NCBI GenBank assembly: GCA_027064165.1
Contig: JAMOQE010000062.1
Coordinates: 1-33,108 of the forward strand
Length of the DNA stretch: 33,108 nt
Source of the DNA: Thermodesulfatator sp.
GTDB taxonomy: Bacteria; Desulfobacterota; Thermodesulfobacteria; Thermodesulfobacteriales; Thermodesulfobacteriaceae
Direction of reading: 5' to 3'
Part shown: in pieces, positions 9,713 through 27,923 of the stretch
Position numbering within the stretch: position 1 is the first letter of the stretch
Layout of the letters: every line of letters starts with the position of its first letter
Notes under the pieces: generated by a model
Databases searched by the model: none
What the model was told of the DNA's origin: nothing
What the model saw: only the letters and a program-made list of their open reading frames with translations
Translations under genes and position numbers: made by a program

Positions 9713-10527
9713 TGGCTGATACCCTTGAAAACTTTACAATTGGCATAGTTGGTGGCTGTGGAAAAATGGGAAAGCTCTTTGAAAAATTTTTTAAAAATTT
9801 AGGCTATGAGGTGCTTATCTCTGACCTTTCCTGCGGAATTCCTCTTGAAGAGCTGATCTCAAAAGCAAAAGTTATTATAATCTCTGTGCCTATGGACTGC
9901 TTTGAGGCAGTAATAAAAGAAATAAGCCCCCTTGTAAATGAAAGCCACTGGGTAATGGACATCTGCTCTTTAAAAAAAGAACCTATAGAAATTATGAAGT
10001 CCCATTTAAAGTGTACAGAGATCCTTGGTACCCATCCACTTTTCGGTCCTTATGAAAAGGATCTAAAAGGAAAAATTATGGCCCTTTGTCCTGTAAAAGG
10101 AAAAAATCTTTTAAATTGGGCTAAAAAAACATTTTCTGAAGAGGGCCTTAAAGTGGTAGAAGTCTCCCCGGAAAAGCACGATGAAATTATGGGTGTTGTG
10201 CAAACACTAAATCACTTCTGGCTTGTGCTGCTGGCAAACTTGATTAAAGAGCTTGACTTAAATATTGAGGATCTGGTAAATCTCTCCACTCCAAGCTTTC
10301 TTAAACAGCTCCTTATCCTGAAAAGGCTTGCAAGGCAGGACGAAAATCTTTATGCCAGAATCCAGTTTGACAATCCTGCAGGGAATAAAATAAGGGAGAA
10401 ATTGTGCAATCTCTGTGAGAAACTTGTTTCAGAATTTCAGGGGACTGAAAAGGAAGAAGCTTTTAAAAAATATTTTCTTCAGGCAAAAGAAATTGCTAAA
10501 GAACTTGAAAAACTTCTAAAAATCTAA
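9712..10527 (+). CDS. tyrA: Prephenate dehydrogenase
   Basis: NAD(P)-dependent oxidative decarboxylase converting prephenate to 4-hydroxyphenylpyruvate in tyrosine biosynthesis. It has 271 aa: an N-terminal Rossmann domain with IGIVGGCGKMGKLF (residues about 10-23) and a helical dimerisation domain with the family motifs GTHPLFGP and HDEIMGVVQTLNHFW. There is no fused chorismate mutase or ACT domain. An arogenate-specific variant is possible. Its ATG overlaps the deacetylase stop by one base, and it ends convergently, overlapping the radical SAM gene on the other strand by 12 bases. No other aromatic pathway genes are nearby. Confidence 0.9.
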   Translation: MADTLENFTIGIVGGCGKMGKLFEKFFKNLGYEVLISDLSCGIPLEELISKAKVIIISVPMDCFEAVIKEISPLVNESHWVMDICSLKKEPIEIMKSHLKCTEILGTHPLFGPYEKDLKGKIMALCPVKGKNLLNWAKKTFSEEGLKVVEVSPEKHDEIMGVVQTLNHFWLVLLANLIKELDLNIEDLVNLSTPSFLKQLLILKRLARQDENLYARIQFDNPAGNKIREKLCNLCEKLVSEFQGTEKEEAFKKYFLQAKEIAKELEKLLKI

Positions 10528-11532
10528 TGTTACCTCTTTTAAACGAGGTTTATAACAGGCCTGACAAAAAGAATAATCCTTAAAATCTCTTCTAAATCTT
10601 TTAAATTTTTCTTTTTTCCAGATTGATTTTAAACTGGTTTCTTCGTATACATTGCCAAAGCTTAAATGAGAATAAGAAATGCTTTCTCCTTCAAAAAAAT
10701 AAGCCGGATTCCCTTTCACAGGAAGATACAAAAGCACACAGGGAGATACTTCTCCTGAGGAGGCAATAAAAAGTGCGTCTTCTATGTATTCCGGACACTT
10801 TTCTGCATAATAATCTTTGCAGGGCAAAAAAACGCGCATTTCCATCCCCAATTCTTTTGCCTTACAAATTGCTTCTTTAGCAATACTCAAAGCCCCTTCT
10901 TCAAAGTAAATTACTTCAGACTGGAGTTTTGAAGAAGGTACAAAGGTTAAAGTGTGGACTACAATTTGCCTTACCCCCAGGCTTTTTAAGTAATCAGGTA
11001 ATTTAAGTAAATCCTCCATAGCAGACCTAAGCCACATATAAGCAATGTGAACATAAGGCCTGGAAGTTTTATTAAATTCTTTCTGTTTTTTCAAGGTTTC
11101 TATGCACCAGAGCACTTTTTTAAAGCTCGTGCCTTCACGAATTTCATCGTTTTTTTTATCAACCCCTGCAAGGGAAAAGGCAATTAGATCAAGCCTTTCC
11201 TCAATAAGCCTTTTTACTGTGTCCTCTTTCCAGACCGTGCCATTTGTAGTTGTTCCTACAAACAGTCCATCTTCTTTTGCTATACGCAAAAATTCAAAAA
11301 ATTGAGGATGTAAAAAAGGCTCTCCCCATCCCTGCAAATGTAGCATTCGGGTGGAAGAAAAGTCTTTTAATAAGGAGGAAAATCTTCCCAGAGAAAAATG
11401 AACAGGCTTCCAGAAAGTAGCATATACCCTGTGAGGACAGTAAATACACCTTCCATTGCAAAACGAAGTAACCTCAAGCTGAATCCAGCGCCAGAGATAA
11501 AATAAACGGGAAAAGCATTTAAAAAGATTCAT
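10516..11532 (-). CDS. Radical SAM/SPASM-like protein
   Basis: Radical SAM enzyme of 338 aa. The 4Fe-4S ligands are Cys25, Cys29 and Cys32 in FCNGRCIYCPHR, followed by HLQGWGEPFLHPQF (the GGE-type SAM motif). The C-terminal third carries further cysteines in a SPASM-like arrangement: FLPCKDYYAEKCPEY, SGEVSPCVLLY and YSFCQACYKPR near the end. Such auxiliary-cluster enzymes modify peptides or proteins or act as maturases; the substrate is unknown. Its ATG overlaps the stop of the small Cys-rich gene (ATGA), so the two are translationally coupled. No transporter or second biosynthetic gene is adjacent. Confidence 0.85.
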   Translation of the reverse strand: MNLFKCFSRLFYLWRWIQLEVTSFCNGRCIYCPHRVYATFWKPVHFSLGRFSSLLKDFSSTRMLHLQGWGEPFLHPQFFEFLRIAKEDGLFVGTTTNGTVWKEDTVKRLIEERLDLIAFSLAGVDKKNDEIREGTSFKKVLWCIETLKKQKEFNKTSRPYVHIAYMWLRSAMEDLLKLPDYLKSLGVRQIVVHTLTFVPSSKLQSEVIYFEEGALSIAKEAICKAKELGMEMRVFLPCKDYYAEKCPEYIEDALFIASSGEVSPCVLLYLPVKGNPAYFFEGESISYSHLSFGNVYEETSLKSIWKKEKFKRFRRDFKDYSFCQACYKPRLKEVTLDF

Positions 11533-13290: not shown

Positions 13291-14478
13291 TTAAAAATAT
13301 ATTCCAGCTGAAGCCACAGAAACCACTGAGCCCTGGCCAAATGGAAGGGCATCCTGATAATAAATCTCCCCTTTACATTTTTTACCCAGTTTTTTCATAA
13401 TCAAAGAAAGAAGATAAAGACAGGAAAAACCGCACACTTTCATTTTCTCTGCTTTCGGAGCAAGCTCTTCTATTCTTTCTGAAGCCCCCTCAAAGGCACT
13501 TTCCATAAGCTCTTTATCAAGTTCAAGAGCCTCTTTTCTCTCCTTTTCTGTTACAGCAAAAGGATCTCCGTACCTTAAACCCAGATGACAGAAGTCAATA
13601 CCCAGCACAAGATAGGTTCTTTCATCAAAAAGCTCTACTATAGCCTGAGCAAAGTCTTCTACAAGCTTTTTATGTTCTTTAAACAACAAAAATGGCCCTA
13701 CAAGAAAAGGCAGCACAACAAATTCTTCTCCAAGGAGATAGTGAAGAAAAAGCATCTGAAATTCAAGCGAATGTTCCATCCTATGTGCCATGTGATCAGG
13801 GAATAAGTTGAGTTTTCTACTTTGAGTAAGAAAAAATAACCCACCCTTATCGTTTTTAACCACTCCAAATGGCGTAGCAAAATCCTTTGTAAGCACAGAA
13901 ATAGGGAAATCCAGATGATGTCCTACTCCCAGAAGGATTATCCTTGCTCCTTTCTCAGGCTTAAATCTGGCATAGCTCTCTGCAAATCCCCTTGCACCTA
14001 CCCTTAAGTCTATATGAGGAGCAATGAGCACTCTGGGAGTCTTTTCTTGAACCACTCCCTCTGCCAGTTTTAAAATATCCTCTACAAAAAATTTCGCCTC
14101 AGCAGGAGAAACAGGATAAGCCTGCATGGCATGAGCCATGGGACGCACTTTGACCTTAAGCCATTTTTCGTAAGCCCTCTTCTTTATCTCCTCAAACCTT
14201 TCACTCCAGAGAAGCCCCTTCTCATCAAGAAATTCCACAAGTTTTTTTATGTCTTCAATTGGAACTACCTGCCCCAGTCTCTTGGTAGCCTCTGCCTGAA
14301 GATCTCTCAAGTCATGTTTCCCATCCATCAAGGCAAGCAAAAATCCCATATATTGAGGCACAACCACAATCTCATTTATAAAAGCAAGTGGATCTCTTAA
14401 AAGAAAAACCGGTTTCCCTTGATGATTGGAAGGAATTACATCTACATATCTCAAAATAGGCTTAAAACTTTCCTCCAT
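13291..14478 (-). CDS. amrB: AmmeMemoRadiSam system protein B (Memo family)
   Basis: Memo-family metal-binding protein, the B component of the AmmeMemoRadiSam set (AMMECR1, Memo, radical SAM) whose biochemical role is not settled. The N-terminal ~130 residues form a helical, PqqD/winged-helix-like domain often seen in bacterial members (MGFLLALMDGKHDLRDLQAE). The Memo domain follows: APHIDLRVGARGF and LLGVGHHLDF supply the metal His residues, and VCGFSCLYLL supplies the Cys. I prefer ATG 14478 (395 aa) to TTG 14490, because GGAGG lies five bases before the ATG and overlaps the TTG. It is one base after the ParB-like stop, so it is the last gene of the dcw unit. Partners A and radical SAM are not seen adjacent. 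Confidence 0.88.
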   Translation of the reverse strand: MEESFKPILRYVDVIPSNHQGKPVFLLRDPLAFINEIVVVPQYMGFLLALMDGKHDLRDLQAEATKRLGQVVPIEDIKKLVEFLDEKGLLWSERFEEIKKRAYEKWLKVKVRPMAHAMQAYPVSPAEAKFFVEDILKLAEGVVQEKTPRVLIAPHIDLRVGARGFAESYARFKPEKGARIILLGVGHHLDFPISVLTKDFATPFGVVKNDKGGLFFLTQSRKLNLFPDHMAHRMEHSLEFQMLFLHYLLGEEFVVLPFLVGPFLLFKEHKKLVEDFAQAIVELFDERTYLVLGIDFCHLGLRYGDPFAVTEKERKEALELDKELMESAFEGASERIEELAPKAEKMKVCGFSCLYLLSLIMKKLGKKCKGEIYYQDALPFGQGSVVSVASAGIYF

Positions 14479-14479
14479 T

Positions 14480-15256
14480 CTACCCTCCAAAATCCTCTAT
14501 ACTTAATTCTTTACAGGCTTCTTTAACCCTTTCAATAGCCTGATAAAACTCCTCCTCTATCACCCTCACCCTTAAACCAAAGGCCCTTTGCACAGCCTTT
14601 CTCACAATCTCTCCCTTTTGCAGGGCGTTCTCAAAGCCCAGCTCTGCAAATTTATCATTTACTACCTGATTCAGTTCCACAAGGGCATCTGCCCTTCTCC
14701 TTCTTTCCTCAATAGCACTCTCCAGCGGCTCATCCAGAAATTCGTCTATCTTGGACACAAAACTTTCATAAAAACTGGCTGGAAATCTCTTCTCTTTTTC
14801 TTCAAGCACAAATCCAAAAGTGATGTAAACCGGGTCTTTAAAATAGGTAAAAAGATCTGCCTCTATAAGAGAGGCATCCTCTTCAAAAAGATCCATATAT
14901 AACCTGTAAGCCTGCCTTGACTTTTCCTTTACATTAGGGGGTTTTTCTGTGTTAAATTCCAGAATATGATGGTAAAGGCTTTCATCCGCCACAATGGCCA
15001 GAATTTCTCGCGCTCCAAGATCCTTCATGGCCTCAAGCCTGTGCTGGCCATCCACCACAAAAAACTTTCCTTCCTTTTCCACCACCACAATGGGAGTCAA
15101 AAAGCCCAGCTTTTCAATAGCCATTTCAAGATGCTTCTTTAAACTCTCGGAAATATCCCTTTGAAAAGGCGGCCGATGCACCTCCTCCAGTTTCAAAACT
15201 ACAAGCTTGAGAGGCTGCTTTTTTACTGGATCCTCAAATACTGCTATCTCTTTCAT
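14480..15256 (-). CDS. ParB/Srx-fold protein with DGQHR motif
   Basis: Protein of 258 aa with an N-terminal ParB-like domain: VHRPPFQRDISESL, LGFLTPIVVVEKEG and VDGQHRLEAMKDLGAREI. The signature is DGQHR, as in DndB/DGQHR-type members, not the GERR of true chromosomal ParB that binds CTP. No ParB-type helix-turn-helix or dimerisation domain is obvious; the C-terminal 150 residues are helical and strongly charged (AIEERRRRADALVELNQ). No parA is nearby. The start is ATG 15256 with AGGGGTG just upstream; a GTG at 15265 is less likely. It begins 12 bases after ftsZ and is followed at once by the Memo gene. Function unknown; DNA or nucleotide binding is plausible. Confidence 0.75.
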   Translation of the reverse strand: MKEIAVFEDPVKKQPLKLVVLKLEEVHRPPFQRDISESLKKHLEMAIEKLGFLTPIVVVEKEGKFFVVDGQHRLEAMKDLGAREILAIVADESLYHHILEFNTEKPPNVKEKSRQAYRLYMDLFEEDASLIEADLFTYFKDPVYITFGFVLEEKEKRFPASFYESFVSKIDEFLDEPLESAIEERRRRADALVELNQVVNDKFAELGFENALQKGEIVRKAVQRAFGLRVRVIEEEFYQAIERVKEACKELSIEDFGG

Positions 15257-15268
15257 TTTTATCACCCC

Positions 15269-16387
15269 TTAATCAGCATTTCTTCTAAGGAAAGCAGGAA
15301 TCTCAAGCTCCTCCTCTGTAATCTCAAAAATACTTTTTATTCTGCGTTTTTCTTCCCTCTTTTTCTTTGCCTCCTCAAGCTGAATAATCCCTTCCTCTTC
15401 TTCTTTCTTTTCTTCTTTTTCAAGCCCTGTAGCAATTACCGTAACCCTTAAGGTATCCCCCATATTTTCGTCAAATACAACGCCCCAGTAAACCTTGGCA
15501 TCAGGATGCAATTCCTTGGCAACTGTTCCGGTAATAATCTGGGTTTCTTCCAGAGTAAATGTATCAGGATTGGCACTTATATTTAAAATCAATCCCTTTG
15601 CTCCAGAAATAGAAAGATCTTCTAAAAACGGGCTTGAGATAGCAAGCTGGGTAGCAACTTCAGCCCTTGTTTCTCCTTCTGCCTCTCCCATTCCCATAAG
15701 GGCAAGCCCTCCGCTTTCCCTCATCACTGCCCTTACATCTGCAAAATCAAGATTGATAAAACCCGGAAATAAAATCAAATCAGAAATACCTTTTACTCCG
15801 TAATATAATACATCATCTGCTTTTTTAAACATGTTTACCAGCTTTTCCTGGGGAGAACCAAGACTTATTAGCCTGTCATTGGGTATGGTAATGAGGGTAT
15901 CCACATGTTTTTTTAGCTCTGAAAGCCCGAGTTCAGCTATTTTCATTCTCATTTTTCCTTCAAAGGAAAAGGGCTTTGTTACAACAGCTACTGTGAGAAT
16001 ATCCATTTCTTTACAGATTTGAGCAACTACTGGGGCAGCACCAGTGCCTGTACCTCCTCCCATTCCAGCAGCAATAAATACCATATCTGCATCTTTTAAC
16101 ACATCCCTTATCTCTTTTTCACTTTCTTCTGCTGCTCTCCTTCCTATCTCAGGATCTCCTCCTGCCCCAAGACCTCTTGTAAGATTTCTTCCAAGCTGTA
16201 TTTTTTGAGGAGCAGGATTCAGGGCAAGCACTTTATAATCTGTATTGGCTGCTATAAACTCTACTCCCTTTAATCCATGTGAAATCATGTGGGCAATGGC
16301 ATTTCCACCAGCCCCGCCAAGCCCTATTACCTTAATAATAGGCTGGACTTTTACCTCTTCTTCAACCAATTCAAATGGGAGAGTCAT
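15269..16387 (-). CDS. ftsZ: Cell division protein FtsZ
   Basis: Tubulin-like GTPase that forms the cytokinetic ring. The 372 aa contain [12 protein letters not shown] (nucleotide binding, residues about 20-31), AANTD, the tubulin signature [15 protein letters not shown], the synergy region [11 protein letters not shown] with the Asp needed for GTP hydrolysis, a charged glutamate/lysine-rich linker (about 325-355) and the C-terminal FtsA/ZipA-binding peptide [14 protein letters not shown] 16387 is preceded by AAAGGAGGAG. It lies 11 bases after ftsA. The ParB-like and Memo genes follow without a terminator, so FtsZ does not end the transcription unit here as it often does elsewhere. Confidence 0.98.
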
Positions 16388-19248: not shown

Positions 19249-20623
19249 CCTTTTCTTCTTTCTCAAAAAACAGGTGGTTTAATTTATAAATATCTCCTGC
19301 ACCCATGGTAATAATCACTTCTCTGCCTTCAACAAGCTCTTTTAAAATTTCAAAAAGACCAGATAAATCCCTGGCAAAAAAGGTGGGTTTATTTCCTCTT
19401 ATCATTTTCAAACTCTCAAAAAGATGTTCTCCAGAGATGCCGGCAATAGGGGCCTCACTTGCAGGATAAATCTCCGTTAAAAGTAATACCTCTGGCTCTT
19501 TTAAAACCAGTAGAAATTCCTCCCAGAGAGCCTTTGTTCTGGTATATCTATGGGGCTGAAAGGCAAGAAAAAGCCTTTTTTCTGGATGAAGCTCTCTTAT
19601 AGCTTCAAGGCTTGCCTTTATTTCTCTTGGATGATGGGCATAATCATCATAAATCAAGGCACCCCTCCAGATACCTTTAAACTCAAGCCTTCTTGCAGCC
19701 CCCCTGAACTTTGAAAGAAGCTTTAGCACCTCTCTTACAGGAAGCCCAAGGGAGATGGCAACCCCTACAGCACCCAAAGCATTTAATATGTTGTGTCTTC
19801 CAGGAATATTGAGCCTTAAAATTCCAAGGTATTCACCTTTATAAAATACTTCAGCCTGCGGATAAGCCCCGTTCTTTCTTAACACGGCTCTCAGATGATT
19901 TTCCGGCTCAAATCCATAAAATAAAAAGGGGCCTGAAATTTCGTATGCTACCTCTCTTACCCCTCTATCGTCTCCACACATCACCACCTGGCCAGAGGGA
20001 GCACAACGATTTATAAAATTTACAAAAGCCTTTTTTACTGCATCAAAATTTGCATAAAAATCAAGATGTTCCCTATCAATGTTTGTAATTACCTCTATAT
20101 AAGGCTTATAACATAAAAATGAACCATCACTTTCATCAGCCTCTGCCACAAGATACTCCCCTGATCCCAAAAACGAGTGGCCTTTAAGATTGTTTACTAT
20201 CCCACCCACTATAATGGTTGGATTCTTTTTTAAACCAAGCAGCACCTCCGCAATCATGGAGGTAGTGGTGGTTTTCCCATGAGAACCTGCAACCACTATG
20301 CTTTTGGGATGAAGGCTCATTATTTCAGCAAGCATCTGCGCCCTGGGAATTACCCAGAGCCCTCTTTTTTTAGCTTCAAAAAGCTCTGGATTATCCTTTG
20401 GCACAGCCGAGGAATAAACAACAACTTCCACCCCTTCCAAATGAGAAGGACTATGTCCTTTAAACACCTTTATGCCTTCCTTTTCAAGCATATTGGTATA
20501 TTTATTCCTGGCAAGATCACAGCCTGAAACATAATGGCCAAGCTCTTTTAAAATCAGGGCAAGACCACTCATCCCCACTCCACCAATTCCCACAAAATGA
20601 ATTCTCTTTTTTTCCTTCAGCAT
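19232..20623 (-). CDS. murC: UDP-N-acetylmuramate--L-alanine ligase
   Basis: ATP-dependent Mur ligase adding the first residue, L-alanine, to UDP-MurNAc. The 463 aa show the N-terminal UDP-binding HFVGIGGVGMSGLA, the ATP loop VVAGSHGKTTTTSMIAE (about residues 110-126), the central VAEADESDGSFL with its metal-binding Glu/Asp, TNIDREHLDFY and the C-terminal FRGAARRLEFKG and DDYAHHPREIKASL typical of MurC. ATG 20623 is preceded by GGAGGGG and overlaps murG by 7 bases. The 3' end overlaps the start of murB. Confidence 0.98.
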   Translation of the reverse strand: MLKEKKRIHFVGIGGVGMSGLALILKELGHYVSGCDLARNKYTNMLEKEGIKVFKGHSPSHLEGVEVVVYSSAVPKDNPELFEAKKRGLWVIPRAQMLAEIMSLHPKSIVVAGSHGKTTTTSMIAEVLLGLKKNPTIIVGGIVNNLKGHSFLGSGEYLVAEADESDGSFLCYKPYIEVITNIDREHLDFYANFDAVKKAFVNFINRCAPSGQVVMCGDDRGVREVAYEISGPFLFYGFEPENHLRAVLRKNGAYPQAEVFYKGEYLGILRLNIPGRHNILNALGAVGVAISLGLPVREVLKLLSKFRGAARRLEFKGIWRGALIYDDYAHHPREIKASLEAIRELHPEKRLFLAFQPHRYTRTKALWEEFLLVLKEPEVLLLTEIYPASEAPIAGISGEHLFESLKMIRGNKPTFFARDLSGLFEILKELVEGREVIITMGAGDIYKLNHLFFEKEEKDAVAA

Positions 20624-21699
20624 ACCAGCCCCTCCAGAGTATCAATAATCACTTTTTCTGGTTCTTTTAGAAATAGCTCCCCCATAACTTCAGACATCTT
20701 TTCAAGTCGTTGAGGGGAGGAAAAAAGCCCTGTTATAAGAGAAAGTACTTTTTCTGGGGCAGCTTCTTTTTCTGGTAAGCAAAAAGCTCCTCCCCTTTCA
20801 CTAACTGCCCTTGCATTTTTCTCCTGATGATTGTGGGTGGCGTAAGGAAATGGGATAAGAACTGCCGGAGTTCTTGTGGCAAAAAGCTCTGCAAGAGTGG
20901 TTGCCCCTGCCCTTCCCACCACCAGATCCACTTCTGAATAAGCCCAGGCCATGTCCCTTATAAAAGGCAAAACCTTAAGCCTCCTCTTTTCTTCCCCTGC
21001 AAGCAAGCTTTCATAGGCTTCTTTCACTTCCCTTTCTTCAAAAAGTCCTGTCTGATGAATCACCACAAGGTCTTCAAACCTCTTCAAAAGTTCCGGTACC
21101 ACCTTAAGGGCAAGATGGTTTATAAACCTTGCTCCCTGACTTCCTCCCATAAAAAGAATTCCTCTGTGTGTCTTTGCCTTTCTTCTCTCTGGCACAGAAA
21201 GAAGCTCTTTTCTCACAGGGTTTCCTGAAAAAACCACTTTCTCATTGGGGAAATACTTTTCACTTCCCTTTATACTCAAAAATATTTTGTCCACCCATCT
21301 TCCAAGAAGCTTATTTGCAACCCCGGGTTCAATGTTTTGCTCGTGAAGCCCAAGCACCTTTCCAGAAAGCCTTGCTGCAAGCACAACGGGAATAGCTGTA
21401 TAACCTCCAGTTGCAAGCACTACATCTGGATCAAAATTTTTTAAAATTTTTCTTGCCTTAAAAAAGGCTCTACCCATTTTAAAAAGACTCCTTGCCTTAT
21501 CTCTTGGAGAGCGGCCTACAAATCCCTCCACATCAAGCCTCTCCACAGGGAAAGGCCTATCTTTTAAAATCTCCATTTCCACCTTTCTTGTGCCAGAAAC
21601 AAAAAGCACCTCTTTCCCCTGTTCAAGAAGTGCTTCTGCCACGGCAATTCCGGGAAAAAGATGTCCCCCAGTTCCTCCAGCCACTATAAGCCACCTCAA
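20617..21699 (-). CDS. murG: UDP-GlcNAc:lipid I N-acetylglucosamine transferase
   Basis: Peripheral membrane GT-B glycosyltransferase converting lipid I to lipid II on the cytosolic face. The 360 aa contain the lipid-side G loop VAGGTGGHLFPGIAVAE, ATGGYTAIPVVLAA, LHEQNIEPG, the second glycine loop LFMGGSQGARFIN and the donor-binding VGRAGATTLAEL. The initiation codon is TTG at 21699, in a TTGA overlap with the murD stop; AAAGGG lies seven bases upstream. In most dcw clusters ftsW stands between murD and murG; here there is no space for it. Confidence 0.97.
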   Translation of the reverse strand: MRWLIVAGGTGGHLFPGIAVAEALLEQGKEVLFVSGTRKVEMEILKDRPFPVERLDVEGFVGRSPRDKARSLFKMGRAFFKARKILKNFDPDVVLATGGYTAIPVVLAARLSGKVLGLHEQNIEPGVANKLLGRWVDKIFLSIKGSEKYFPNEKVVFSGNPVRKELLSVPERRKAKTHRGILFMGGSQGARFINHLALKVVPELLKRFEDLVVIHQTGLFEEREVKEAYESLLAGEEKRRLKVLPFIRDMAWAYSEVDLVVGRAGATTLAELFATRTPAVLIPFPYATHNHQEKNARAVSERGGAFCLPEKEAAPEKVLSLITGLFSSPQRLEKMSEVMGELFLKEPEKVIIDTLEGLVC

Positions 21700-23102
21700 T
21701 GGTAAACCCTTTGGCTTTTTTCCTCTCCATAAAATCGGGGAGCCTCTTCTAAAACAAGCCTTCTAAAGGCCTCTCCCCTCTCCTCATAGTTCTTAAATTC
21801 ATCAAAGCTTGCACATCCCGGGGAAAGAAGAATCACATCTCCTGGTTTTGAAGCCTTTAAAGCAAGCTGAAAAGCCTCTTTTAAGTTCTTAGCATACTTT
21901 GTCTCCACCACTCCTTCAAGCTCCTCTCCAAGCCTCTCTCTTGCCTCACCCATAAGAATGAGAGTTTTTACCTTGGCTTTTATCTGAGGCCTTAAAACCT
22001 CATATTTTCCTCCCTTAAATCTTCCACCCATAATCAAAATCACAGAACCGCTCAAACTTTCCAGTGCTTTAAGAGTGGCATCCACATTGGTTGCCTTGGA
22101 GTCATTGATAAAATCAACCCCAGCAAAGCTTGCAATGTATTCCATTCTGTGGGAAAACCCCACAAATGTATCTATAAGCTCTGAAACAGCTTCTTTTCTG
22201 GCACCAATAAGCCTTGCAGAAAGGGCTGCAGCAGCACAGTTAAGCCTATTGTGCATTCCGCACAGCTTAAAAGAGGTAAAGTCATACACCTCTTCGTCAT
22301 CAAGTCTTATCACAAGCTCCTTTTCCTCTTTCAAAAAAGCTCCTTTTCCAGGAAAAGGCTCCTCTGCAAAGTAAATAATTTTTCCTCTCACAAGTGGCCT
22401 GTATTTGTGAAACCATGCCTCTCTTAAAGGCAAAATACTGAAATCTTCTCTGCCTTGATATTCAAAAAGCCTGTACTTATAATAGGCATATTCCTCAAAA
22501 GAGGAGTATCTGTCAAGATGGTCAGGGGTTATATTCAAAAGCACCCCGATCCTGGGCGAAAAAGTTTCAATGGTTTCCAGTTGAAAACTTGAGACTTCAA
22601 GCACCACTTTTTCCACTTTTGCCCCTTTTACCACCAGGTCTGAAAGAGGGATGCCGTAATTTCCTCCAATAAAAGTTTTATATCCAGAAAGCCTCAGCAT
22701 TTCTCCGCACATAGCAGTGGTGGTGGTTTTTCCGTTTGTCCCGGTTATGGCAACTGTGTTTTCTTTTAGCTCCTGAGGAAGACACTGCCAGGCAAGCTCA
22801 AGCTCTCCAATTACAGGAATGTCTTTTCTGATACAAATTTTGTAAACTTCTTTTGGTACTCCGGGACTTACCACCACAAGATCCGCTGAAGAAAGAAGGG
22901 CCTCTGCGTGCCCCACTTCAAAAGCCACACCATCCCTTACAAAGCTGTTTATCAGTTCTTCTGCAAAGTATTCAAGAGGCTTGCTTTCAGAAACAATCAC
23001 CCTTGCACCGCACTTAAGAAGAAGCTTTACTGCTGCCTGCCCGCTCCTTCCAAATCCAATTACCACAACCCTTTTTTCTTTTAAAAATTCCCTTAAATTC
23101 AC
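21696..23102 (-). CDS. murD: UDP-N-acetylmuramoyl-L-alanine--D-glutamate ligase
   Basis: Mur ligase adding D-glutamate to UDP-MurNAc-L-Ala. The 468 aa carry VVVIGFGRSGQAAVKLL at the N-terminus, the P-loop VAITGTNGKTTTTAMCGE, LEVSSFQLETI, NITPDHLDRY, and DFINDSKATNVDATLKAL with IMGGRFKGG near the C-terminal domain. GTG 23102 follows AGGAGG with a short 4-5 base spacer. There are ten bases between mraY and this gene, one of the few gaps in the cluster. The stop overlaps the murG start. Confidence 0.97.
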   Translation of the reverse strand: MNLREFLKEKRVVVIGFGRSGQAAVKLLLKCGARVIVSESKPLEYFAEELINSFVRDGVAFEVGHAEALLSSADLVVVSPGVPKEVYKICIRKDIPVIGELELAWQCLPQELKENTVAITGTNGKTTTTAMCGEMLRLSGYKTFIGGNYGIPLSDLVVKGAKVEKVVLEVSSFQLETIETFSPRIGVLLNITPDHLDRYSSFEEYAYYKYRLFEYQGREDFSILPLREAWFHKYRPLVRGKIIYFAEEPFPGKGAFLKEEKELVIRLDDEEVYDFTSFKLCGMHNRLNCAAAALSARLIGARKEAVSELIDTFVGFSHRMEYIASFAGVDFINDSKATNVDATLKALESLSGSVILIMGGRFKGGKYEVLRPQIKAKVKTLILMGEARERLGEELEGVVETKYAKNLKEAFQLALKASKPGDVILLSPGCASFDEFKNYEERGEAFRRLVLEEAPRFYGEEKSQRVYH

Positions 23103-25579: not shown

Positions 25580-27051
25580 TTTTCTTTATCCTCCTGAAAT
25601 TTTTTTACTGCCCGCAAAAGTTCTTCTTTATCAGAAAAAGGGACCCTTCTTCCCTTTATTTCCTGATAGTCTTCGTGTCCCTTTCCTGCAACAAGAAGTA
25701 CATCTCCTTCTTCAAGAAGGGTTACAGCCTGTTTTATAGCTTCTCTTCTGTCAGGAATAACAAGAGGCTTTTTCTTTTTAAAACCTTTAAGTATGTCTTC
25801 AATAATAGCCTGAGGGTCCTCTGAGCGGGGATTGTCAGAAGTAACTATGACAAGATCTGCAAGCCCTTCTGCTACAGCTCCCATAAGCGCTCTCTTGCCT
25901 TTGTCCCTGTCTCCACCGCAGCCAAATACCAGAATAAGTCTGTTTTTAACCCAGGGTCTTATTCCAAGAAGAGCTGCCTTAAGGGCTGAAGGAGTATGAG
26001 CATAGTCCACAACGAGAAGGGCACCGTTAAAGCTTCCCACAACTTCAAGCCTTCCCGGAGGAGAAACTGCCCCTGAAAAGGCATCCGGCAAAAGGCTTTC
26101 TTCTATGCCTAAGCAAACAAGTAAGCCCCAGGCGACCCCTAAGTTAAACCTCTGAAAGTCTCCTATAGCGCTTAAATGGAGCTTATATTCTGCTTCTTTC
26201 CTCTCTATGAGAAGTGTAATCCCTTCTTTTCTCCCCAGCACTTCTACTTTAAAACTATCTGTATTTACAGGGAAAAGCCTTACATGAAGACACTCACTTA
26301 AGAGCTCTTCCAAAAGCCTTTTTCCCCATTTTGTTTCAAAAGAAATAACAGCTCCCCCTTTTTCTATAAGGTGCTCTGTAAAAAGAAGTTTTTTGCTCTG
26401 ATAATAACTTTCCATGTCTTTATGATAGTCAAGGTGATCTCTTGAAAGATTGGTAAAGCCAGCTACATCAAATTTTAGTTCTGAAAGCCGTCTTTGCTCA
26501 AGGGCATGGGAAGATACCTCAAGCACACAGGCCTCAAAGCCCCTTTTTACAAGCAGATTAAAAAGTTCAGCAAGCTTAATAATGGATGGGGTTGTCTCCT
26601 TTGCAGGAAGTTTTTCTCCCACATCATAAAACACCGTGCCAATGTAACCTGTCTTTACTCCAAGTTTTTCAAGGGCCTGTCTTGCAAAAAAAGCTGTGGA
26701 AGTTTTTCCATTTGTGCCAGTAATGCCAATAAGTTTTAATTTTTTCTGAGGATTATCAAAAAAATTTAAGGCAACTTTTCCCATTTCTCTTTTGCTATCT
26801 TTTACTATTACCTGGGTAACACTTTTTTCAGGCAAAACAGGTGGTTCTTTCAGTATAGCAACAGCTCCCTTTTTTATTGCGTCCTCAATAAACTCCTCTC
26901 CACTTTTTTGCGTCCCTTTTCGTGCAATAAATAAATACCCCGGCCTTACCTCCCTGGAATCCTCTGTAACTCCAGTTATAAAAATATCCAAATCTCCACA
27001 GAATTCTGTTATATCAACCCCCTTTAGCACCTCTTTTAAAGCTTTCTTCAT
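25576..27051 (-). CDS. murE: UDP-N-acetylmuramoyl-L-alanyl-D-glutamate--2,6-diaminopimelate ligase
   Basis: Mur ligase adding the third stem-peptide residue. The 491 aa include GVTEDSREVRPGYLFIARKG, the P-loop IGITGTNGKTSTAFFA, CVLEVSSHALEQRRL, TNLSRDHLDYHKDMESY, VVDYAHTPSALKAAL and VFGCGGDRDKGKR. The DNPR motif in TSDNPRSEDP is the marker for meso-diaminopimelate specificity (lysine enzymes differ here), so the cell wall is predicted to be of the mDAP type. ATG 27051 overlaps the stop of the truncated ftsI-like gene (ATGA). Confidence 0.97.
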   Translation of the reverse strand: MKKALKEVLKGVDITEFCGDLDIFITGVTEDSREVRPGYLFIARKGTQKSGEEFIEDAIKKGAVAILKEPPVLPEKSVTQVIVKDSKREMGKVALNFFDNPQKKLKLIGITGTNGKTSTAFFARQALEKLGVKTGYIGTVFYDVGEKLPAKETTPSIIKLAELFNLLVKRGFEACVLEVSSHALEQRRLSELKFDVAGFTNLSRDHLDYHKDMESYYQSKKLLFTEHLIEKGGAVISFETKWGKRLLEELLSECLHVRLFPVNTDSFKVEVLGRKEGITLLIERKEAEYKLHLSAIGDFQRFNLGVAWGLLVCLGIEESLLPDAFSGAVSPPGRLEVVGSFNGALLVVDYAHTPSALKAALLGIRPWVKNRLILVFGCGGDRDKGKRALMGAVAEGLADLVIVTSDNPRSEDPQAIIEDILKGFKKKKPLVIPDRREAIKQAVTLLEEGDVLLVAGKGHEDYQEIKGRRVPFSDKEELLRAVKKFQEDKEK

Positions 27052-27923
27052 AGGAGAGCTATTAATTCTTTTCCCAAGATTTTCAACTTTTCTTTATCTC
27101 CATTCACCTTCAAGGCAAGTAAGTATAACTTTTTATGTTTTATTTTCAGCCAGCAAATCACCTCTCCCATATCATACCAGCCGGGATTGTGCTGAATCAA
27201 AGAGAAATCAGGAACACATACCTTTTGGGGATGATAAAGAGGAGTTATAGCAGAATCTTTCCCACAAAGCTTTGTATAAACATCTCTGACAAGTCTCCAC
27301 ACTTTGTCCCTTTTTTTAAAGGAAAAGGGTGGAGAGGCAAGAAAGCTTAAAATTTCTCCTGTATTAAGGTCTATCACTGCTATTTCATAGGGTACATTAA
27401 TATGCTTTGTCAGAAGATAAAGCCTTTTTTCTGTTTTTATGTTTAAGGAAAGCCTCAGGGCCTGGCCTTTTTTTAATATTTCATTAAATTCTTTTTCCAC
27501 TCCGGATATTCCTATGTTATTAAAGCACTTCCCTACAAAGGATTCCAGATATGGATAAAGAAGCTTCCTCTGATAATGCTTCTGAAGAATTACATTTTCA
27601 ATTCCCTTTAACCGCTCAAATTCATCGGGAGAAAGGTTCTGCGAGAGAAGAATAAGCCCTTTTTCAGGGAGGTTAAGGGTAGTAGGCAGGTATTTCCTTA
27701 CTTCTTCGGGTATTCTTTCCCTAAAGAATCTACCTTTTTTTAAAAGATAGTAAGCTCTGTATTTCTCAAAAGAAATAACTAGGGGCTCTCCATTTCTATC
27801 AAGAATGTAACCTCTTTTAATAATAGGCGGGGTTGTGCCACTTACTTTTTGCGAAAAATCAAAAATTACAGCTATTAAAACAAGGATTGCAGAAAAAATA
27901 ACACAAAAATAACACTTCTTCAT
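27048..27923 (-). CDS. Truncated FtsI-like protein lacking the transpeptidase domain
   Basis: Occupies the ftsI position between ftsL and murE. One membrane segment (about 4-24) is followed by class B PBP N-terminal features: KRGYILDRNGEPL (36-48), the RKLLYPYLESFVG block (119-131), GISGVEKEFNEIL (138-150), LRLSLNIKTEKRLYLL (156-171) and AVIDLNTGEILSFLASPPF (182-200), which is where a transpeptidase domain would begin. Normal FtsI has about 550-600 aa; this has 291. No SxxK, SxN and KTG set occurs in usable order or spacing. The ORF is open, coupled by ATGA on both sides, and there is no space for the missing domain, so it looks like a stable shortened protein. Probably structural; a recent assembly-independent deletion is possible. 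Confidence 0.8.
   Translation of the reverse strand: MKKCYFCVIFSAILVLIAVIFDFSQKVSGTTPPIIKRGYILDRNGEPLVISFEKYRAYYLLKKGRFFRERIPEEVRKYLPTTLNLPEKGLILLSQNLSPDEFERLKGIENVILQKHYQRKLLYPYLESFVGKCFNNIGISGVEKEFNEILKKGQALRLSLNIKTEKRLYLLTKHINVPYEIAVIDLNTGEILSFLASPPFSFKKRDKVWRLVRDVYTKLCGKDSAITPLYHPQKVCVPDFSLIQHNPGWYDMGEVICWLKIKHKKLYLLALKVNGDKEKLKILGKELIALL

Follow-up and report, generated by a model that had tools for sequence, protein, structure and literature searches.

Two genes follow ftsZ closely on the minus strand of the 33,108-nt stretch of Thermodesulfatator sp. DNA analyzed here (the window), one coding for a ParB-like protein and the other for a Memo protein, and this raised the question of whether they act beside FtsZ in cell division or belong together for another reason. 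The source genome (1.49 Mb, 81 contigs) has Thermodesulfobacterium and Caldimicrobium records as its close named relatives. The comparison included a class sample of 41 genomes (Thermodesulfobacterium and relatives), all of which were searched, and a wider phylum draw of 395 genomes.

The gene pair and its surroundings

The locus comprised the following features, where RRE denotes a RiPP recognition element:

15269..16387, minus strand: ftsZ, the upstream neighbor of the pair in this lineage only and outside the conserved pair
14480..15256, minus strand: ParB-fold protein gene, 258 aa from ATG; ParB_N 26.2 bits, model residues 16-103 similar to ParB/Noc N-terminal domains
15038..15052, minus strand: codons of DGQHR at the position of the P motif (GxxR), with invariant G and R and a variable residue in the middle
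13291..14478, minus strand: RRE-Memo gene, 395 aa from ATG; Memo 125.5 bits, AmmeMemoSam_B 80.1 bits
14194..14478, minus strand: predicted N-terminal RRE/PqqD-like domain, about residues 1-95, from the predicted fold, VIA-align, and the PqqD profile in relatives
13309..14139, minus strand: Memo domain (PF01875) by Pfam profile; MEMO1 Z 27
14014..14016, minus strand: His codon equivalent to MEMO1 H49 (iron ligand), invariant in 22/22 rows, by alignment to 7kq8
13918..13920, minus strand: His codon equivalent to MEMO1 H81 (iron ligand), invariant in 22/22 rows, by alignment to 7kq8
13432..13434, minus strand: Cys codon equivalent to MEMO1 C244 (iron ligand), invariant in 22/22 rows, by alignment to 7kq8

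The preliminary description had reported both open reading frames behind ftsZ with spacings of 12 and 1 bases, and the ATG starts reproduced them in the minus-strand order ftsZ, 12-nt gap, ParB-fold gene, 1-nt gap, and RRE-Memo gene; the start listed at 15265 is an upstream in-frame GTG that is a possible alternative start of the ParB-fold gene. FtsZ was securely assigned (TIGR00065, 413.9 bits, cut-off 295.2) and closes a dcw run. Within this run, the gene in the ftsI position (window 27048-27923) codes for a short protein of 291 aa, whose PBP_dimer match is weak and below the cut-off and which has no transpeptidase domain; its counterparts have 324-333 aa in three relatives and 451 aa in G036, and one strong transpeptidase PBP is encoded elsewhere in the same genome. 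The ftsW gene was absent between murD and murG (window 20617-23102) and likewise from the ORF tables of those dcw stretches of relatives that cover this place. On the other side of the pair, a radical SAM/SPASM protein is encoded at 10519-11532, separated from the Memo gene by about 1.8 kb that include a PF03601 membrane protein.

The ParB-like protein was present in 40 of the 41 class genomes and the paired (RRE-) Memo type in 39 (72-168 bits), and the ParB-like gene was followed by RRE-Memo at a gap of -11 to +3 nt in 38/40 genomes, such that the arrangement is not due to chance. The two exceptions were a contig edge (G005) and a different gene in the next position in G008 (64% complete), which kept the ParB-like gene and in which no RRE-Memo was found; G030, rated 100% complete, contained neither the ParB-like protein nor the paired Memo. 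The pairing is well supported by this genome evidence, and the proposed ParB-Memo link held on both adjacency and shared absence; the two proteins are very probably functional partners of each other.

The surroundings of the pair were more variable. At least four contexts other than ftsZ were found (at least five surroundings altogether) in the class genomes, where the flanks of the 18 genomes without an adjoining ftsZ were annotated partly by eye and partly by Pfam. A divergent flgM-like gene and an S4-domain pseudouridine synthase flanked the pair in six of the eight loci read, and other flanks included an NrdR-like gene, a B12-binding radical SAM gene, and CCG-domain or LptD-like genes. That the two genes are neighbors by operon inheritance only and serve separate processes is distinctly unlikely: this would agree with RRE-Memo lacking a ParB-like neighbor outside the class and with the different gene in G008, but the two genes remain together across at least five different sets of flanks and are both missing from G030.

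The ftsZ gene immediately preceded the pair in 22/40 genomes, all from genera g1, g2, and g6, where its end lay -4 to 29 nt from the start of the ParB match. None was seen beside the pair in the remaining 18, of which 17 had at least 336 nt of upstream DNA and G040 had none. In complete genomes or long contigs, ftsZ was far from the pair, as in G024 (493 kb vs. 242 kb), G036 (452 kb vs. 838 kb), and, on a single contig, G027 (108 kb vs. 275 kb). As the pair remains joined while its flanks change and ftsZ lies hundreds of kb away, it behaves as a moved unit for which ftsZ is one address, and its retention in nearly all relatives, including those with ftsZ at another place, points to a working pair that is probably unrelated to division. 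The position beside ftsZ gives co-transcription with wall and division genes in one lineage, nothing more. The neighborhood survey proposed in the preliminary description therefore upheld the linkage between ParB and Memo (38/40) and not the linkage to ftsZ (22/40), and the suggested connection to FtsZ or division was not supported.

A role in division or nucleoid occlusion beside FtsZ, as first suggested, would fit the ftsZ-ParB-Memo order of those 22 genomes and the presence of Noc among the nearest folds of the ParB-like model. However, it is most improbable given the 18 genomes without ftsZ beside the pair and the distances in complete genomes, a score of 31.7 bits against the Noc equivalog TIGR04285 (cut-off 315) that places the protein outside the Noc family, and another ParB encoded elsewhere in the genome; it was set aside after the survey of neighborhoods and ftsZ positions.

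Beyond the class, the ParB-like protein was rare, with matches in 23 of the 395 phylum-draw genomes comprising 16 class members and seven distant homologues (1e-17 to 1e-38). RRE-Memo spanning most of the length was found in 98/378 non-class genomes (counted from the match list) and is thus phylum-wide. Neither a ParB-like nor an FtsZ neighbor of RRE-Memo was identified in 39 sampled non-class genomes (0/39, blastp 1e-15), which argues that the ParB partner is an addition of this class and dispensable for the basic role of RRE-Memo. Clustering of these 39 regions revealed no recurring neighbor in more than 5/39, barring antisense ORFs within the Memo gene. In five of the seven loci of distant ParB-like homologues (L081-L085), comparison of ORFs with the window proteins by blastp identified no Memo nearby, with an ORF caller that missed some genes in GC-rich loci. 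A second, distant ParB-like homologue (~39% identity) was observed in G018 (L086:5862-6701) beside genes that by eye were type II secretion/pilin-like. A mobile origin of the ParB-like protein was also considered and dropped, as tblastn at 1e-5 against plasmids and phages returned nothing.

A ParB fold with a class-specific tail

The ParB-like protein scored 26.2 bits against Pfam ParB_N (PF02195), just below the cut-off of 26.3, and two of its distant homologues exceeded this cut-off. Its family profile matched structures of ParB, Noc, sulfiredoxin, SbnI, and serine kinase (hmmsearch; 3.6e-10 to 4umk), and model residues 16-103 superposed on the nucleotide domains of ParB/Noc with Z 9-10. The P motif GxxR was conserved with G73 and R76 invariant in 23/23 rows, such that the PF02195 fold and the P motif characteristic of the ParB-CTPase fold were both found. 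The model was modest (pLDDT 71, pTM 0.55) with low values at residues 30-51 and 95-107, the pocket loops. The Glu of the ENxQR box appears to be replaced by Phe in the aligned ParB-like protein. From fold and motif, we infer a putative NTP binder of the ParB/sulfiredoxin fold. ParB-fold proteins are reported to bind ATP, CTP, or GTP, with the caution that which of them is bound is not readable from sequence (PMC12704722).

The DGQHR motif noted in the preliminary description was present in the window protein and did not extend to the family, since the middle residue of DGxHR in the 20 class rows was R in 13, Q in five, L in one, and H in one, and the curated DGQHR family (TIGR03187, DndB-like) gave 16.3 bits against a cut-off of 58.85. 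A DGQHR/DndB or defense function was rejected, with DGQHR unconserved and weak PADLOC matches (best 5e-4, 17 bits). The view that this is not an ordinary partition protein was strengthened by its score of 28.8 bits against the partition profile TIGR00180 (cut-off 58.45) and by a separate canonical ParB above that cut-off in 37/41 class genomes, encoded on contig C78 in the genome studied here. The reported lack of parA also stood, with no ParA homologue recognized among the ORFs flanking the pair by eye and with some Pfam searches.

The C-terminal half of the protein was helical, with no HTH_ParB match at E<=0.1 and no clear structural match of the helical half, most Z-ranked rows covering residues 16-103 only. 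The last 50 residues were conserved only in the Memo-linked class; within residues 208-258, 19 positions were invariant in the 20 class rows and one was common to all three distant homologues. This conservation within the class, barely shared with the distant homologues, suggests that residues 208-258 are a likely docking surface.

A Memo paralogue with a predicted peptide-binding wing

The protein encoded by the second gene exceeded the cut-offs of Pfam Memo (PF01875, 125.5 bits, cut-off 27) and AmmeMemoSam_B (TIGR04336, 80.1 bits, cut-off 26), placing it in both families, and superposition of its Memo part on MEMO1 gave a Z of 27. MEMO1 binds iron through H49, H81, and C244 (PMC11081632), and the residues at all three equivalent positions were invariant in 22/22 rows. 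Memo matches were identified in 41/41 class genomes with two per genome in 36, and the ordinary Memo (AmrB) was found in 38/41 at roughly 221-267 bits; judged by sequence, the paired Memo is a diverged paralogue and not the ordinary AmrB. The preliminary description had identified both genes correctly; it noted neither the RRE-like domain nor the additional Memo of the ordinary type.

The N-terminal domain returned no confident Pfam match over the first 110 residues. In the AlphaFold2 model of RRE-Memo (mean pLDDT 79), its predicted elements were E13-19, E22-28, E38-41, H42-49, H57-68, and H74-86, consistent with three strands followed by three helices as RREs are defined in a published source (PMC12710340), which also names Memo-like proteins among the new RRE fusions of 2025. 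By VIA-align, the domain matched lasso B1 (6jx3; Z 8.8, rmsd 2.8, 82 aligned), TigE (Z 8.3), TbiB1 (8.2), and PqqD (8.1), as well as winged helices of protein-lysine methyltransferases (Z 7.0-8.2); a Z of about 8 can by itself reflect a common arrangement, yet one fold family fills the match list. The PqqD profile TIGR03859 matched the domain in 14/42 relatives (best 4.8e-7) and Pfam PqqD in 2/42 (best 0.032), with the window's own sequence outside the matches to either profile and without any NCBIfam match, and a search of PDB sequences with a profile of the domain yielded no significant match (the best was PaaA at 0.059). The domain is thus predicted to adopt a PqqD-like RRE fold, and peptide or protein binding by it is likely.

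Beside the pair, no gene for a precursor peptide was recognized. In genera g3-g5, a short ORF located upstream of the gene for the ParB-like protein was considered as a precursor peptide and rejected, as the DNA alignment of eight loci displayed indels and not coding conservation; with the conserved palindromic stretch in the same alignment, the ORF was taken for a regulatory site. This stretch, with the palindrome-like CCCTTTTAAAGGG upstream of the pair (L022-L029, g3-g5), may be an operator.

The remaining AmmeMemoRadiSam genes were widespread in the class, with AmrS above the cut-off in 41/41 genomes and AMMECR1 in 38/41. G029 (97% complete) kept AmrS and the pair without the ordinary Memo and AMMECR1, suggesting that the pair is independent of both, with an assembly gap possible. 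These patterns could agree with a role in which RRE-Memo passes a peptide on to AmrS, a radical SAM protein, much as PqqD serves PqqE, and in which the ParB-like protein acts as a switch. Such a role is very unlikely: AmrS was identified in 365/395 phylum genomes whatever the Memo type, G158, G185, G245, G254, and G266 have RRE-Memo and were listed without AmrS at the cut used, and a further three RRE-Memo genomes (G295, G314, and G386) lay outside the AmrS matched list. As AmrS is missing from some RRE-Memo genomes, it is not a required partner and the candidate of AmrS as an obligatory one was unsupported.

Possible function and known systems

A tentative scheme, carrying somewhat under an even chance as a whole, is that an NTP-binding ParB-fold protein works with an RRE-guided, iron-site Memo on a peptide or protein. 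A segment of a peptide or protein held by the RRE-like domain would be modified or metered at the adjoining metal site of Memo, and the ParB-fold protein would bind an NTP, dock via its class-specific C-terminal helices, and switch or energize the Memo step. The domain reading draws on models and profiles, and the chemistry is what we infer.

The module may instead act on a small molecule through iron or redox chemistry, with a MEMO1-like, iron-binding Memo, an N-terminal wing that is only a scaffold, and a ParB-fold protein that is a small kinase or a sulfiredoxin-type ATP enzyme. Besides the MEMO1 fold and iron ligands, this would be in line with a match to the profile of the ADP-dependent serine kinase SerK (NF053625, E 1.1e-5), the Asp of DGxHR, which is invariant in 20/20 class rows and superposes in register with a free serine kinase (model residues 13-91 to residues 13-91 of the 5x0g chain), and the GxHR shared with sulfiredoxin. 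The Cys of the sulfiredoxin GCHR is catalytic. However, it is replaced here by Q/R/L/H, the SerK match of 24.7 bits falls outside that family (cut-off 380), and across the phylum the wing retains its RRE topology and its similarity to the PqqD profile, which leaves the small-molecule explanation rather unlikely.

A more specific form of the preferred peptide or protein scheme would be a housekeeping, NTP-gated maturation machine of this thermophilic class, in which an RRE-guided Memo iron enzyme is controlled by a dedicated ParB-fold NTPase switch and acts on a cellular protein rather than a classical RiPP precursor. As a whole this is unlikely; if true, it would be the first case of an RRE enzyme with a partner of the ParB fold. 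More generally, a Memo paralogue with a domain of peptide-binding type and a co-inherited partner of nucleotide-binding fold offers a direct handle on Memo function through the peptide held by the RRE domain, the action of the metal site on it, and the controlling nucleotide, and for the ParB-fold proteins that left chromosome partition, the pair brings a further type of partner. In the literature searches made, no published record of a ParB-fold partner of RRE-Memo was found.

Compared to AmrB (TIGR04336), the protein has the same Memo domain above the curated cut-off, whereas it is a second, diverged copy with an extra N-terminal domain in genomes that mostly (38/41) encode an ordinary AmrB elsewhere. 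Human MEMO1 (7KQ8; PMC11081632) has the same fold and H49/H81/C244 ligand positions, but lacks the RRE-like domain, and the host here is a bacterial anaerobe. The free serine kinases SerK/SbnI and sulfiredoxin share the ParB/Srx fold and a DGxHR-like phosphate motif with the ParB-like protein, which lies far below the curated SerK cut-off and has no catalytic Cys as in sulfiredoxin. An MNIO with its RRE-type partner (MbnB/MbnC and relatives) provides a working analogy, as there too a peptide-binding domain of RRE type guides a protein with an iron site, although its iron fold is unrelated, it is not known to have a ParB partner, and no precursor peptide was found here. The orphans of the ParB-CTPase fold likewise combine the ParB_N fold and GxxR P motif with no parA recognized alongside (PMC12704722); the protein studied here differs in its helical C-terminal domain without a Pfam HTH match and in a dedicated Memo neighbor, which that source does not name. 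The fusion of RRE and Memo is itself already known from one sentence in print (PMC12710340), and the window Memo looks like one of these fusions with the same domain pair and predicted RRE topology. The word ParB is absent from the main text of that account, whereas here a ParB-fold gene is joined to the Memo gene class-wide.
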